IMG/VR virus record: IMGVR_UViG_3300050138_000418
Coordinates: 1 to 48,544 of that record
Strand: one strand, 5' to 3'
Origin: a virus
DNA: 48,544 bases
Below the pieces are notes generated by a model, which saw only the letters and a list, made by a program, of their open reading frames with translations, did not search any database and had not been told where the DNA came from. The translations under genes were made by a program, and so were the position numbers. Positions 7,181 to 37,959 of this stretch are shown here, one piece after another; position 1 is the first letter of the stretch; each line of letters starts with the position of its first letter.

Positions 7181-7456
7181 ATGAAACCGTTAATGCTCGC
7201 AGGCTGGCTCATGGCGTTTGGCGGTGATGCCGTGACCACAGATATCGGGCTCCAACAACAGGCACGCGAAGTCACCTTGCCCACGCAGAATCGGGTGATG
7301 CTCCAAGGGATGTTGGCGGGGCAAGCAGGCTTTGGTTTGTGGGCGTATAAGCGGTGGCATGTCACCCATCCGAAGCTGGCGAAAACGATCTATATTGTGG
7401 GCGTGGCCACGCATGGTGGGGCGACAATTTGGAACCTCACGCAAATTGTCAAATGA
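7181..7456 (+). CDS. Small membrane protein
   Basis: 91 residues from the ATG at 7181, chosen for the GAGAGGGGG ribosome site. It has a hydrophobic N-terminus (MLAGWLMAFGGDAVTTDIGL), a middle hydrophobic part (MLQGMLAGQAGFGLWAYKRW) and a third hydrophobic stretch (TIYIVGVATHGGATIWNL), so two or three membrane passes. It resembles small phage membrane proteins of the DUF5658-like type (GGDAVTTDIGL near a DAxTT motif), though I am not certain. Ends in an ATGA overlap. Confidence 0.65.
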   Translation: MKPLMLAGWLMAFGGDAVTTDIGLQQQAREVTLPTQNRVMLQGMLAGQAGFGLWAYKRWHVTHPKLAKTIYIVGVATHGGATIWNLTQIVK

Positions 7457-7674
7457 AACTATTCCACCGTTCACGAAAAGAGAAGCCCTTGACGATTGAA
7501 GAAGTCAAACGTATTGCCCGCGCCCCCATTCTCGTCAACCATTATGGCGGGCGCTCGTGGGGTGGGGCGATGCCGTTGCCAGATGACACAACGACTAGAT
7601 TTGAGTATGATGCGTGGAGACATCTGCATAACCAGCATCGGTTGCCGAAACGTTCTGATGAGGAGGGAGATTAA
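7453..7674 (+). CDS. Hypothetical protein
   Basis: 73 residues from the ATGA overlap at 7453; the longer frame to 7354 would overlap the membrane protein by 100 bases. It starts MKLFHRSRKEKPLTIEEVKR and ends LPKRSDEEGD, and has a central VNHYGGRSWGGAMPLPDD. No family recognised. Confidence 0.65.
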   Translation: MKLFHRSRKEKPLTIEEVKRIARAPILVNHYGGRSWGGAMPLPDDTTTRFEYDAWRHLHNQHRLPKRSDEEGD

Positions 7675-7784
7675 TGACTCGAACAGATGTCTTGAACAAT
7701 TGGTATAGCACGTTTACCAACTTACGAGAACATGAAATACCTTTGTCCGAATGGCTTACATATTGGAAAGGACGCCGCCCATGA
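7674..7784 (+). CDS. 36-residue hypothetical peptide
   Basis: Frame starting at a TAATG junction (7674) and ending in an ATGA overlap (7781) with the next gene. GAGGAGGGAG precedes the ATG. The product begins MTRTDVLNNWYSTFTNLREH and ends LTYWKGRRP. Exact coupling at both ends and a strong ribosome site support it. Confidence 0.7.
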   Translation: MTRTDVLNNWYSTFTNLREHEIPLSEWLTYWKGRRP

Positions 7785-7996
7785 CCCGCATCTTCTGGTG
7801 GTCGCTGATGGAGCAATGCGAGCAGTTAGCGAAAATCCCATCTACCTTGGATCCGATTCATAGCTATACAATGGCAAGCAAGCCGTATCGGCAAGCAGCC
7901 TTTGCCAATATCAAAGGCGGCGTAGCAAAAATGAAGTATGCCGCTGACCCCGGTTGGGGCTATCATGCCCAGCAGTCAGGGATGAGTAAGCGATGA
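7781..7996 (+). CDS. Hypothetical protein upstream of RepA-like ATPase
   Basis: 71 residues from the ATGA overlap at 7781. It begins MTRIFWWSLMEQCEQLAKIP and ends GWGYHAQQSGMSKR. The last codons overlap the start of the RepA-like gene (ATGA at 7993). It may be an accessory of the replication ATPase, but no domain is recognised. Confidence 0.65.
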   Translation: MTRIFWWSLMEQCEQLAKIPSTLDPIHSYTMASKPYRQAAFANIKGGVAKMKYAADPGWGYHAQQSGMSKR

Positions 7997-18186: not shown

Positions 18187-18379
18187 TGTTGAACTCGAAC
18201 CGTGGGGCACACCAAATTTTGTTCGTACCAAACTTGGCGGCGATTCTATTAAGATTGAAGACCTGGAAGCCGAGACGTTATCGGCACTTTGCGATGAATT
18301 TAGAAAGACAATGTTCGAGCGTGCGGGGTGGCTTGACCCGCGTGTAATTAAGTCCGTGAATGACGATATCCCGTTTTAG
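18173..18379 (+). CDS. Conserved small phage protein, end of rightward block
   Basis: 68 residues from the ATG at 18173 (or 18179), after GGGGGAG. The sequence VELEPWGTPNFVRTKLGG ... LEAETLSALCDEFRKTMFERAG is a family I recognise from many phages, where it lies near polymerase genes; function unknown. Its stop overlaps that of the convergent protease gene by four bases, so there is no intergenic terminator between early and late transcripts. Confidence 0.75.
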   Translation: MVMFSVELEPWGTPNFVRTKLGGDSIKIEDLEAETLSALCDEFRKTMFERAGWLDPRVIKSVNDDIPF

Positions 18380-18990
18380 CGCGGCATCAGGGCGTGAATC
18401 TCCGCCACGCCACAGAGCACCGAATTATTCTCATTCGATGCTTCGTTGACGCCCACCACATAGCCCTGTTCATCAATGGAGGGCCCACCAGACATCCCAT
18501 TGATCAACGGGGCGTCGAGCACCAAGTCGGAGTGGGCATCCAAAAAGGTGAGCTGATGTAGCAATGGCAGTGTATAGTAGCCTGCTACATGATGGATGAG
18601 CGTCACCAGCCCATACTCCCCGACATAGCCAAAATCTAGGACCCCGCTGCCGATGGCGGGCGCCTCATCACGGATCGTGAAGACGTGCGCTTCTGACACA
18701 TCGGTGGCGACCAGGGCGAGGGTTTCGCTCTCATTCACGAGGTGGGCTAAGGTGGTGTTCACTGCAATCGGCGCATCCACCTCTTCCCCGATGCAATGGC
18801 GAGCCGTGACGACCAACCCGGTTTGGTCCACAAAAAATCCCGAGCAATGAATGAGTTCGCCCTCACTGTCAATGCTCAGGATATGGACAATCGCGGAGAG
18901 AGGTGCAGGGACTTGTGGGCGAAGAACCTGACTAGCCGAGAGCCCGAGTAACGCCATACCAATGGCGGTCCAGACGAGGAAAATCTTCAT
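18376..18990 (-). CDS. Trypsin-like serine protease, secreted or membrane-anchored
   Basis: 204 residues. An N-terminal hydrophobic helix (MKIFLVWTAIGMALLGLSASQ) is a signal peptide or anchor. The chymotrypsin-fold triad is visible as TARHC (H65), ALVATDV (D97) and NGMSGGP (S167), with TGLVVTARHC as in HtrA/trypsin-like proteases. No PDZ domain is present. It is the last gene of the late block and overlaps the preceding gene by 59 bases at its start. Proteases of this kind are rare in phages; possible roles are host-envelope modification or protection of the infected cell. Confidence 0.8.
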   Translation of the reverse strand: MKIFLVWTAIGMALLGLSASQVLRPQVPAPLSAIVHILSIDSEGELIHCSGFFVDQTGLVVTARHCIGEEVDAPIAVNTTLAHLVNESETLALVATDVSEAHVFTIRDEAPAIGSGVLDFGYVGEYGLVTLIHHVAGYYTLPLLHQLTFLDAHSDLVLDAPLINGMSGGPSIDEQGYVVGVNEASNENNSVLCGVAEIHALMPR

Positions 18991-19318
18991 CTTCTAAGTG
19001 TAGCAGGCTTTCGAGGGTGTAGAATACAGGAATTCTGTGGAGGAGGGCGAAGTCATGCTCAGCCTTCGCTCCGGTAGAACGCATCCAATCAGAAGTCATC
19101 AGCACCGCATCGCACTTTTTGAGAATGGCTAAGTCTCCATCGAGCCACACATGATCGGGGAGCACGCCCTGGTAATGGCGAGTATTAAGGTGAGGGCAGA
19201 TACAGGCAAATCCCGCTCGCCACACTTCAAGTGCGAGAGTTTCCGCTCGCCGAATGTTCTGCTCAATCTCCCAATGGTGAGCACCGCGAAATGGTCCCGC
19301 GACATATACCACGAGCAT
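18932..19318 (-). CDS. DUF4406 / nucleoside 2-deoxyribosyltransferase-like
   Basis: 128 residues from the ATG at 19318 (TGATG junction). VVYVAGPFRGAHHWEIEQNIRRAE followed by CPHLNTRHYQG, LDGDLAILKKCDAVLMT and STGAKAEHDFALLHRIPVF fits the DUF4406 group of the nucleoside 2-deoxyribosyltransferase superfamily: AGPF binding loop, D in DGDLAIL and E in GAKAEHDFA. These enzymes exchange or cleave bases of deoxynucleosides. It is coupled to the dATP/dGTP diphosphohydrolase-like gene, suggesting joint nucleotide metabolism. Confidence 0.75.
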   Translation of the reverse strand: MLVVYVAGPFRGAHHWEIEQNIRRAETLALEVWRAGFACICPHLNTRHYQGVLPDHVWLDGDLAILKKCDAVLMTSDWMRSTGAKAEHDFALLHRIPVFYTLESLLHLEDEDFPRLDRHWYGVTRALG

Positions 19319-19704
19319 CACTTCTGCTCCTGTTCAAGTTCCTTCTCCAGATAGGCCAGCAAACGCCACGCGCATTTTGCGAGATATCTCACCCCATCGC
19401 TATCAAAGGTGCTGTGTCGTGATTCAAGGAAGTGACGCCCAAAGGCATCAATATCATCTTGGGACTTCGAGCGGTCCCAATGCAAAGGCTGGTTGGGATT
19501 GTGCTGGTCGTTGCCCACATAGGACACATGGGATACCTCAAGCAGCGCCTTCGGAAAGTAATCGAACAGGCCGGTCACGAGAGGATAGGCTTTACGGTTT
19601 GTTTGAACGGGGGGTTCTACGGGCGGTGTCGCTGGCCCATACGGGGCATGGCGTTCACAGGTATGGCTGGCTTCGGGGTCGCAACCGCAAAATTGTGTAG
19701 GCAA
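19318..19704 (-). CDS. dATP/dGTP diphosphohydrolase-like (DUF5664) protein
   Basis: 128 residues from a TTG with GAGGGAGA upstream. The core YPLVTGLFDYFPKALLEVSHVS, then GNDQHNPNQPLHWDRSKSQDD and DAFGRHFLE, matches the DUF5664 / dATP/dGTP diphosphohydrolase N-terminal family, relatives of the MazG-fold MazZ enzymes. These hydrolyse deoxynucleoside triphosphates in phage nucleotide-pool remodelling. An N-terminal Cys-rich extension (CGCDPEASHTCERH) is present. No other Z-genome genes (purZ, datZ) are seen. Confidence 0.75.
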   Translation of the reverse strand: MPTQFCGCDPEASHTCERHAPYGPATPPVEPPVQTNRKAYPLVTGLFDYFPKALLEVSHVSYVGNDQHNPNQPLHWDRSKSQDDIDAFGRHFLESRHSTFDSDGVRYLAKCAWRLLAYLEKELEQEQK

Positions 19705-22159: not shown

Positions 22160-22561
22160 CTAAAGCAACAAATGTGCCAACTCAATGGCGCGGCCCTTGA
22201 CCTGTCGGGACCATTTGGTCGTCAGCAAGTCGGCGGAGGCGCCGTTCCAATCGTCGGCTTGGGCGAGATTCAGGAAGGTATGGAACTGTGCCAAATCCGT
22301 AATCCCGAGATTGAAGACGAGTTCGACAAAGACTTCTTGCCGGATAGGGGTCAGGCCCGCCACCCACGGGAGGACGCGCTGGAGGTCGGTGTGTGCCTCC
22401 AGGACATCACTCTGGAAGATGTCTTCAACCTGGGCAAGCGTCAGGCCGTTATCGGTGAGATTATGCCCCACCCCAATGGTGATTTTGCCCACCGTATCGA
22501 CATAGGGCTTGAGGCGGAGTCCCTCATGTCGGGTGATGCGCTGTTCAAGCGTTTCGGCCAT
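22160..22561 (-). CDS. T4-type lysozyme (GH24 endolysin)
   Basis: 133 residues. HEGLRLKPYVDTVGKITIGVGHNL carries the E13-x8-D22-x5-T28 catalytic pattern of T4 lysozyme (E11/D20/T26). It cleaves peptidoglycan between MurNAc and GlcNAc to release progeny. No signal peptide is visible, so a holin or other membrane protein would release it; two such genes lie upstream. Family members are 145-165 residues, so this is a compact form. Confidence 0.93.
   Translation of the reverse strand: MAETLEQRITRHEGLRLKPYVDTVGKITIGVGHNLTDNGLTLAQVEDIFQSDVLEAHTDLQRVLPWVAGLTPIRQEVFVELVFNLGITDLAQFHTFLNLAQADDWNGASADLLTTKWSRQVKGRAIELAHLLL
22165..22179 (-). promoter_or_regulatory. Sigma-54-like element before exonuclease gene
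   Basis: On the minus strand TTGGCAC-N5-TTGCTTT is a full consensus match. It lies inside the last codons of the lysozyme gene (LAHLLL end). The C of the GC is 13 bases before the GTG at 22152, the same spacing as at 1298-1325. Confidence 0.6.
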
Positions 22562-35519: not shown

Positions 35520-35765
35520 TTAGCCGCCTGCCGGTCCCATGATTGAGCTGCCAGGAGCCATTGGACCCTGAGCGGCCTGCTTCAGCCCAAGCAATGCGGC
35601 TGATTTCGGTGGTCCACCAACAACGCGAGCGTTATAGTTGGCGTGCGCCTTCTTGTGTTTCTTGCCAAACAGATTTGACCCGCCTTCAGGCTTCAATTCT
35701 GCGGGCTTCCCAGGAATCTGAAGATTACTCGGCCCGACGCCACTACCCGGTTGTCCAAATGCCAT
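35520..35765 (-). CDS. Small hypothetical virion protein
   Basis: 81 residues, Gly/Pro/Lys-rich and likely disordered (FGKKHKKAHANYNARVVGG). AAAGGACG precedes the ATG. It lies between the head-tail adaptor and tail genes. No family is recognised; a flexible connector is possible. Confidence 0.6.
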   Translation of the reverse strand: MAFGQPGSGVGPSNLQIPGKPAELKPEGGSNLFGKKHKKAHANYNARVVGGPPKSAALLGLKQAAQGPMAPGSSIMGPAGG

Positions 35766-35777
35766 TCCACACGTCCT

Positions 35778-36866
35778 TTACCAATCTTCGTACAGCCCGT
35801 CAAACAGCCCCTCAACGATTTCTTCTTCCTGCTCTTGGCGCGGGGTCAGGGCCGTCAAGAGGGATTGTTTGTCAGTTGAATAGGTCGCAAACCACGCCGG
35901 GTCCGGGCTGCGATCTTCACGCTCTTTCGCCCGAGCCCATGCCACCGCCCAGGACACGAGAGCATTATCGCTTTCCCCGGGGATGGGGTTGTTGTCCGTC
36001 TCCACAAGTGTAGGAAGCGTAGCCACGTAGACAAGGCGAATCGGGATATCTGAACTGGTTGGTGGAGCGCCTACAATCAATGGCGATCCTACGGGTGAAC
36101 CGGCATTCAAAATATCATAGAATACTGTCATTGCCAATGCGGGATCGGTAATCTGTTGGGCGCGTGCGGCCTGAAAGGTCTGCGAATGATATTGCTTGGG
36201 CTTAAAGTAGATCCATGACGCGGCGGTCGGGTTATTGAACCCAATTGCGTGCGGCTCAATCATCAGGATGCGGAAGCAATCGACGGGAACGCCAGTAAAA
36301 TTGGTTGTTACCCCAGAGGTGCCCGCCGGATACTTACACGACTGGTCATCGAGGATTTTGACAAAGTGGCCTTGATGAAGGTCGATAATCCCTCGCCACA
36401 AGTCCTGACAGCCCTTGATAATAATGTCTAGGAGTTCCGCTTCGGTCCAATAGGGCTGGGTGATCCCAGAGGTATTGATGGCAGGAGCGACAGCGCTATC
36501 TCCGGCGAGCCCGGTATCGTTAAAGGTGGTCGCTGCCGTGGTGGAACCGATTTTCCCCGTCGTCGTCGGACTGCTCCCGGCGGTAACAGTGCGATAGAGG
36601 TCGTAGCCCGTTGCACCCGGGACGGCTTGCCAATTAAGTTGGTTATAATTCGTACCTGAGAGCGTAGCATTCGCTGTTGCCACCGTTGTGCCTTGGCTTG
36701 CATCACTGGACCCCACAGAATTGGTAGCCACGATGGCATAGGTGATGGAGGTAGTGCCCGGGGTGCCTTGCGGCGCCACCAGTGGCGAACCCGGCGTAGT
36801 TAAAGCGAGTGTTTCATGGAGCCGTGTCCGCACCGCTTGTCGAATATTTGAAAGAACAGTTGCCAT
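35778..36866 (-). CDS. Head-tail adaptor with inserted Fn3-like domain
   Basis: 362 residues. The outer parts (MATVLSNIRQAVRTRLHE; then WTEAELLDIIIKGCQDLWRGIIDLH and ALVSWAVAWARAKEREDRSPDP) have the helical pattern of podovirus head-tail connector/adaptor proteins (P22 gp4-like, DUF6682-type). Residues about 22-130 are an Fn3/Ig-like insertion (TSITYAIVATNSVGSSDASQG; WQAVPGATGYDLYRTV), common in such adaptors and often surface-exposed. It seals the portal and binds the tail. Confidence 0.75.
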   Translation of the reverse strand: MATVLSNIRQAVRTRLHETLALTTPGSPLVAPQGTPGTTSITYAIVATNSVGSSDASQGTTVATANATLSGTNYNQLNWQAVPGATGYDLYRTVTAGSSPTTTGKIGSTTAATTFNDTGLAGDSAVAPAINTSGITQPYWTEAELLDIIIKGCQDLWRGIIDLHQGHFVKILDDQSCKYPAGTSGVTTNFTGVPVDCFRILMIEPHAIGFNNPTAASWIYFKPKQYHSQTFQAARAQQITDPALAMTVFYDILNAGSPVGSPLIVGAPPTSSDIPIRLVYVATLPTLVETDNNPIPGESDNALVSWAVAWARAKEREDRSPDPAWFATYSTDKQSLLTALTPRQEQEEEIVEGLFDGLYEDW

Positions 36867-37477
36867 TAGGAGGTCTTTCCGGCCTTCCCCGCTTTGGGGT
36901 TCTGCACCTTGACATTCCAGCGCGGATCAATGGTCATCACGCCTCCGGGGTCCACATCAGGCCGATCTAAGAGGTATTTTGGGTCGATTCCTTCGCCTTT
37001 GCCGTTGACCGGAGACGCGATGCCCTGGAGCACCATTGCACCCCGGGCATGACCCACAACCAAGTGTGTGCCCGGGTCCTCGATCCGTTTGCGCATCTCT
37101 GGCACGAATCTTGCGAGATAGGAATCAATAGATTCGCCATTCGGAGCTGAGACATCGGGAGTGCGGATCAGCTCTTTCATCTGAGGAAGCGAGTCTGTGA
37201 CCTTGGTGCCCGCGAGGTCGCCCGTATTCCAATCCCTGATATTTGGCTCTAATTTGGGCGCCATTCCGAGGTGTTTACCTACTATCTCGGCGGTTTGGGC
37301 CGCTCTAGGAAGGTCCGAGGCGGAGAAGGTGTCGGGGCGCAAGGACAACTGCGACCCCGCATCATGGGCTTGCTGCTCACCCTTGGGCGTTAGCGGAACT
37401 GGAAGCCAGCCGCGTAGCCGTTCTTCTGTTCCGCCCTTATTGAGTGCGGACGCCCCATGTCGAATGTAAATCAGCAC
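36866..37477 (-). CDS. Histidine phosphatase (phosphoglycerate-mutase superfamily)
   Basis: 203 residues from the GTG at 37477, five bases after GGAGGG. LIYIRHGASALN is the RHG catalytic motif, followed by SDLPRAAQTAEIVG, an acidic DWNTGDLAG and VVGHARGAM (second catalytic His). These residues form the complete active site of the branch 1 histidine phosphatases. The substrate is unknown. The gene lies between head completion protein genes, coupled to the adaptor gene by a TAATG junction, which is unusual. It may dephosphorylate a virion or host component. Confidence 0.85.
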   Translation of the reverse strand: MLIYIRHGASALNKGGTEERLRGWLPVPLTPKGEQQAHDAGSQLSLRPDTFSASDLPRAAQTAEIVGKHLGMAPKLEPNIRDWNTGDLAGTKVTDSLPQMKELIRTPDVSAPNGESIDSYLARFVPEMRKRIEDPGTHLVVGHARGAMVLQGIASPVNGKGEGIDPKYLLDRPDVDPGGVMTIDPRWNVKVQNPKAGKAGKTS

Positions 37478-37491
37478 CAACCCTCCCCGGG

Positions 37492-37959
37492 TTAGAGAAG
37501 ATAATCCGCTCCAACCGAGAAGGTCTCACTCGCCGTCGCCACCGTCGCCACGAGCCGCCACGCAGGACCTAGATGTTGATTGATCGTTACACCCGTGCTA
37601 TCTGCGATGCCTGTGAGTCCCGGATAGATGGTAATCAAGGCTCCCGTATTATTATTCAGCGCCGCCGTCGCCGCACCCGCTAAGTCAATCCAGGTATTCG
37701 TATAGGGATTCCGCACCTGGACTTTCACCACCACCGTGCCCGACCCGTTGGCGACCGTGGTATAGAGGCGCACCCCTTTGGCATTCGGGTTATATTGTTC
37801 CGCCGACGCATAGACGCCATCGGAGTTGACGCCTCCGTTTTGCGCCCGCGCCGCCGTGACAAAGATATACCCGGCATTTTGGAGGGCGTCGCCGCTGGTC
37901 ATGTCAACGGGAAGCGACCCCATGACTGGACCATTCACATGATAATCAGAACTTGGCAT
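37492..37959 (-). CDS. Beta-rich virion protein
   Basis: 155 residues with AGGAAAC before the ATG. YASAEQYNPNAKGVRLYTTVANGSGTVVVKVQVRNPYTN is a typical jelly-roll decoration or head surface pattern known from many podoviruses (TWIDLAGAATAALN). Probable head decoration or tail-associated protein. Function not established. Confidence 0.65.
   Translation of the reverse strand: MPSSDYHVNGPVMGSLPVDMTSGDALQNAGYIFVTAARAQNGGVNSDGVYASAEQYNPNAKGVRLYTTVANGSGTVVVKVQVRNPYTNTWIDLAGAATAALNNNTGALITIYPGLTGIADSTGVTINQHLGPAWRLVATVATASETFSVGADYLL

Follow-up and report, generated by a model that had tools for sequence, protein, structure and literature searches.

The DNA analyzed here, an IMG/VR viral contig of 48,544 bases that is referred to as the window, encodes a branch 1 histidine phosphatase within its late virion operon. 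The gene is phage-owned, is under purifying selection and is optional in the phage group to which the contig belongs. The explanation that is favored, with somewhat better than even confidence, is that the gene product is a catalytically competent, optional, late-made phosphomonoesterase that resembles PhoE and CobC. A search of the open-access literature found no virion-associated phage histidine phosphatase and no direct precedent, an absence that in itself proves little. The analysis documents a conserved phosphatase that belongs to the phage and sits among virion genes; if the protein were packaged, phage particles would carry or deliver a phosphatase.

The gene and its operon

The phosphatase open reading frame is read from a GTG codon and encodes 203 amino acids (Table 1). 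An alternative TTG start at 37480 would give a protein of 204 amino acids (36866–37480). The GTG at 37477 is the likelier start since the resulting amino terminus, MLIYIRHG, agrees with those of the homologues in two related contigs (MLIYVRHG in L024 and MLIFVRHG in L028) and since a Shine-Dalgarno-like sequence, GGGGAGGG, precedes it. Both a chance reading frame and host contamination were ruled out from the orthologues in late operons of other phage contigs, the GC content and the evidence of selection.

Table 1. Positions of the phosphatase gene, its neighbors and associated sequence features in the window. Residue numbers are counted from the TTG codon.
Feature	Position	Strand	Remarks
Histidine phosphatase gene	36866..37477	-	PF00300 E=3.6e-23; phrog_12933 1.1e-13
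Shine-Dalgarno-like GGGGAGGG	37481..37488	-	read directly; immediately 5' of the start codons
R7-H8-G9, catalytic histidine motif	37454..37462	-	invariant in 4/4 homologues
R59, second active-site arginine (SDLxRA)	37304..37306	-	invariant in 4/4
IRDWNTGDLAG block with D83	37208..37240	-	DWNTGD invariant in 4/4; usual position of the proton-donor Glu
GHARG (143–147) with H144, second catalytic His	37040..37054	-	kept in 3/4; SSGRI in L028
TGGCACGAATCTTGC, sigma-54-like match	37100..37114	+	exact; antisense inside the phosphatase gene
TGGCAC-N5-TTGC copies	1298, 10826, 27402, 37100, 43210, 43245 (+); 22165-22179 (-)	+ and -	exact
TAATG stop/start overlap, phosphatase/adaptor	36864..36868	-	A at 36866
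Head-tail adaptor-like gene, downstream	35778..36866	-	weak SU10_adaptor; conserved in relatives
Small protein with motif SAALLGLKQAAQ	35520..35765	-	like-motif proteins near the phosphatase in all four phages
Upstream late-operon gene, no assigned function	37492..37959	-	homologues directly 5' of the adaptor in relatives, e.g. L016/L039 and L011/L040

The gene belongs to a same-strand run that comprises the terminase, the portal (P22_portal, phrog_156), a gene at the scaffold position and the major capsid protein (phrog_14242). Several unassigned genes come next, then the phosphatase, a weakly matching SU10-type adaptor and long genes of the tail region. This gene order confirms an earlier note on the same DNA, made from the sequence alone, which had placed the phosphatase among virion genes. 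From its location in the virion operon, the phosphatase would be produced late. The left arm is opposite in direction and encodes an AAA/primase-helicase-like protein, endonuclease VII and DNA polymerase A. Since the contig has no end repeats, it is perhaps incomplete. On the minus strand, at 18376–18990 and 18932–19321, a gene for a Trypsin_2 serine protease overlaps a DUF4406 / nucleoside 2-deoxyribosyltransferase-like gene.

The downstream gene had been called a head-tail adaptor and was said to be translationally coupled to the phosphatase. The label is backed by the conserved synteny of this gene with the portal, scaffold-position and major capsid genes in relatives, but not by its SU10_adaptor match, which falls below the Pfam cut-off (22.6 vs 27 bits). 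Its start does overlap the phosphatase stop, and coupling is plausible from this arrangement; the phosphatase would probably be translated together with the adaptor. At the junction between the phosphatase homologue and its next gene, L024 has a TGATG overlap, L028 a TAATG overlap and L007 a gap of two bases.

An antisense TGGCAC-N5-TTGC element had also been pointed out within the gene. The match is exact and covers the codons for ARFVP. At these codons, the DNA match is absent in all three homologues, so that the copy at 37100 is no evidence for regulation of the phosphatase, and a functional antisense promoter at this site was dropped as unconserved although the element itself is enriched in the window. 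Seven exact copies occur where 0.2 are expected and, when spacers of 0 to 11 were compared, enrichment was present at spacer 5 only, with a single hit at spacer 8. The element is also found in many of the sampled relatives, mostly antisense to late genes, and copies are located in the portal-scaffold gap of L003, L004, L005 and L010. These sequences may serve as promoters or as asymmetric operators.

Active site and family membership

The match of the protein to PF00300 (His_Phos_1) scored 82.7 bits against a Pfam cut-off of 21.7, far above chance. The residues that define branch 1, namely RHG, a second arginine, an acidic donor and a second histidine, are all present. The full RHG / acidic / GHARG active site described earlier is therefore borne out, with R59 as an addition. 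When numbered from the TTG codon, R7-H8-G9, R59, D83 and H144 align with the catalytic set of PhoE (1ebb, 1h2e) and CobC. Considering the fold family together with the catalytic residues, the protein is probably an active phosphatase. It would hydrolyze phosphomonoesters via phospho-His8; the phosphate is predicted to be held by R7, R59 and H144, and the proton to come from D83. The donor position is occupied by Asp in the window protein and by Glu in PhoE (LREIHLGDWEG); the chemistry could be altered by this substitution and by the unusual segment at the C-terminus (PGGV).

PhoE from Geobacillus (Bacillus) stearothermophilus resembles the window protein in being a branch 1 enzyme of about 200 amino acids whose catalytic residues align (1ebb/1h2e, E=1.8e-13 with a four-row profile). 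It differs in being cellular, in its Glu donor, in its typical C-terminus and in being encoded outside a virion operon. The best single-sequence match in the PDB was of the CobC type (TTHB049, 2p9z; 6nru; 6e4b; 5.2e-12). A Foldseek search with a low-confidence AlphaFold model (four sequences, pLDDT = 59) also ranked TTHB049 and CobC at the top, lending weak support for the fold.

It is very unlikely that the protein is a true phosphoglycerate mutase or a CobC α-ribazole phosphatase that serves glycolysis or cobalamin synthesis as an auxiliary gene. While ribazole_cobC was the highest scoring NCBIfam model and the dPGM models scored as well, the scores are far under the cut-offs. For the CobC equivalog TIGR03162, the score was about a third of the value required (55.3 vs 162.9 bits), and for the 2,3-BPG-dependent phosphoglycerate mutase subfamily TIGR01258 (pgm_1) it was 34.1 vs 81.7 bits over residues 3–71 only. 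Furthermore, a non-exhaustive scan of the window proteins contained no cobalamin or glycolytic gene. The SixA equivalog TIGR00249 reached 14.4 bits of the 74.5 required. With none of these NCBIfam cut-offs reached, identification as CobC, phosphoglycerate mutase or SixA was dropped.

Among phage proteins, phrog_12933 is the sole PHROG common to all four phosphatases compared in this study (3e-12 to 5e-18). It is an unannotated phage family, and its match to the window protein spans residues 2–145, which leaves the C-terminal segment outside. Pseudomonas phage PseuP_222 (OP626800) has a gene annotated with a histidine phosphatase domain whose product is 30% identical; that gene adjoins the repressor/early region, whereas the window gene lies in the virion operon.

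By its likeness to PhoE and CobC, the phosphatase would most likely act on a small phosphorylated metabolite, and would do so mainly in the infected cell. A phosphorylated protein as target, be it the capsid or the substrate of a host kinase, or a part in counter-defence, is distinctly unlikely. The virion operon location is in keeping with such a role, as is a patchy distribution that is typical of accessory and defence-related genes; however, PADLOC returned no match to the phosphatase and the SixA score was low. In the absence of a PADLOC hit, the phosphatase was also dropped as a known defence protein.

Distribution and selection among relatives

Related contigs of the same gene order were fetched by scans with the capsid, terminase and adaptor proteins, and PF00300 was sought across the whole records, where it was found in one of 14 contigs in one set and in none of 10 in another. 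L024 and L028 were added by a motif scan, the former being reached independently via its adaptor (L047) as well. Hits named "Listeria phage" from the phage collection were left out since they are unannotated, comprise many pieces under one name and were judged to be probable bacterial contamination. In the subset of records at least about 40 kb long, the phosphatase is present in four (the window, L007, L024 and L028) and absent from 12, counts that do not represent an unbiased frequency since L028 was found solely via the phosphatase itself. The nearest relative by capsid protein (L002; 90% identical) has no phosphatase, and wider motif scans for homologues gave no additional close orthologue. 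The survey of gene neighborhoods that the earlier note had proposed locates the L007 and L024 orthologues in late operons and leaves 12 long relatives without the gene.

The carriers place the phosphatase at three different positions in the operon. In L007 it precedes a small glycine-rich gene that is followed by the adaptor; in L024 both the adaptor and a trypsin-like protease gene lie ahead of it; and in L028 it is preceded by a GH108-type lysozyme region and succeeded by genes for a metallophosphoesterase and for a trypsin-like protease. In other relatives the variable stretch ahead of the adaptor hosts other cargo, such as glycosyltransferase-like and methyltransferase-like genes in L010 (15963–17227), the latter recognized by sequence reading only. 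Given its patchy presence, its differing positions and the other cargo found there, the phosphatase has the behavior of an accessory gene that occupies a variable slot. A Trypsin_2 protease accompanies three of the four carriers and three of 14 non-carriers, numbers that are too small for a claim.

Relative to the window phosphatase, the homologues are 58% (L024), 54% (L007) and 31% (L028) identical, and the catalytic residues are complete in the L007 and L024 orthologues. The L028 homologue (7368–7973) keeps RHG and R146 and has lost the second catalytic histidine, from which it follows that full catalysis is not needed family-wide. This replacement of GHARG would suit a protein that serves the particle as a structural element or pseudo-enzyme, its catalytic site being a relic. 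Such a role is extremely unlikely for the window protein, since it, L007 and L024 retain all of the catalytic residues despite saturated synonymous divergence. Nor is the phosphatase a needed structural part, because it is missing in the majority of relatives whose head genes are the same; particle assembly would be expected to proceed in its absence.

Among the window, L007 and L024 genes, synonymous sites are saturated (pS 0.75–0.85) and dN is 0.39–0.49, about equal to that of the adaptor C-terminal domain. The GC content of each gene tracks that of its phage genome (pairs of 0.58/0.53, 0.63/0.62, 0.60/0.58 and 0.41/0.42) over a range of 40–63%. Taken together, the saturated pS, the dN values and the GC tracking speak for a long stay of the gene in phages, with selection acting on its protein. 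The earlier note would have given up its proposal had the gene been absent in relatives with no sign of selection on the active site; instead, relatives do have the gene, and its three closest members do not differ at any active-site residue. In the L007 phosphatase (L007:15230), the conserved amino terminus lacks an ATG, GTG or TTG codon and has an ACG that follows AAAGGAG, representing either a rare start or a sequence error.

Packaging and the C-terminal motif

A tentative alternative to action of newly made enzyme in the infected cell is that the phosphatase is packaged in the virion and delivered on infection, having been recruited by a C-terminal tag or by a tagged neighbor. The L007 orthologue ends in SQPSLGGLKKAG, which fits the pattern [SA][LIM]xGL[KR]xA, and a motif-bearing gene is located near all four phosphatase genes. 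However, the C-termini of the window, L024 and L028 proteins do not have the motif, the pattern itself is only a candidate packaging signal, and a position in the late operon is insufficient to demonstrate packaging. The earlier note had suggested that the enzyme may be packaged or may act on phosphorylated capsid, sugar or nucleotide substrates; the L007 motif is the only hint in the sequences, bearing on packaging alone and, for the window protein, a weak one.

Motifs close to [SA][LIM]xGL[KR]xA were identified in 19 late-operon proteins from 14 clusters, in most cases starting 9–12 residues from the C-terminus. Outside of the last 25 residues, the clusters have no detectable similarity to each other, and the motif codons are varied. 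Across 537 proteins, the strict motif gave 11 hits within the final 40 residues compared to 0.6 in shuffled sequences, and a control stretch close to the N-terminus gave none, although this enrichment is not an independent test since the motif was first noticed by eye. The motif may be considered a candidate virion or cargo tag. A broader proposal, that the phage group loads accessory enzymes including the phosphatase by means of this C-terminal tag on unrelated late-operon proteins, with the phosphatase tagged in L007 and, in the window, encoded close to a protein that bears the motif, is regarded as unlikely. Through the shared motif, cargo loading could be tested directly in a group of phages that is uncultured. 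Motif-bearing loci include L007:15230–15880 and L007:14874–15227, and others are present in L028, L002, L008, L010, L040, L046 and L052.
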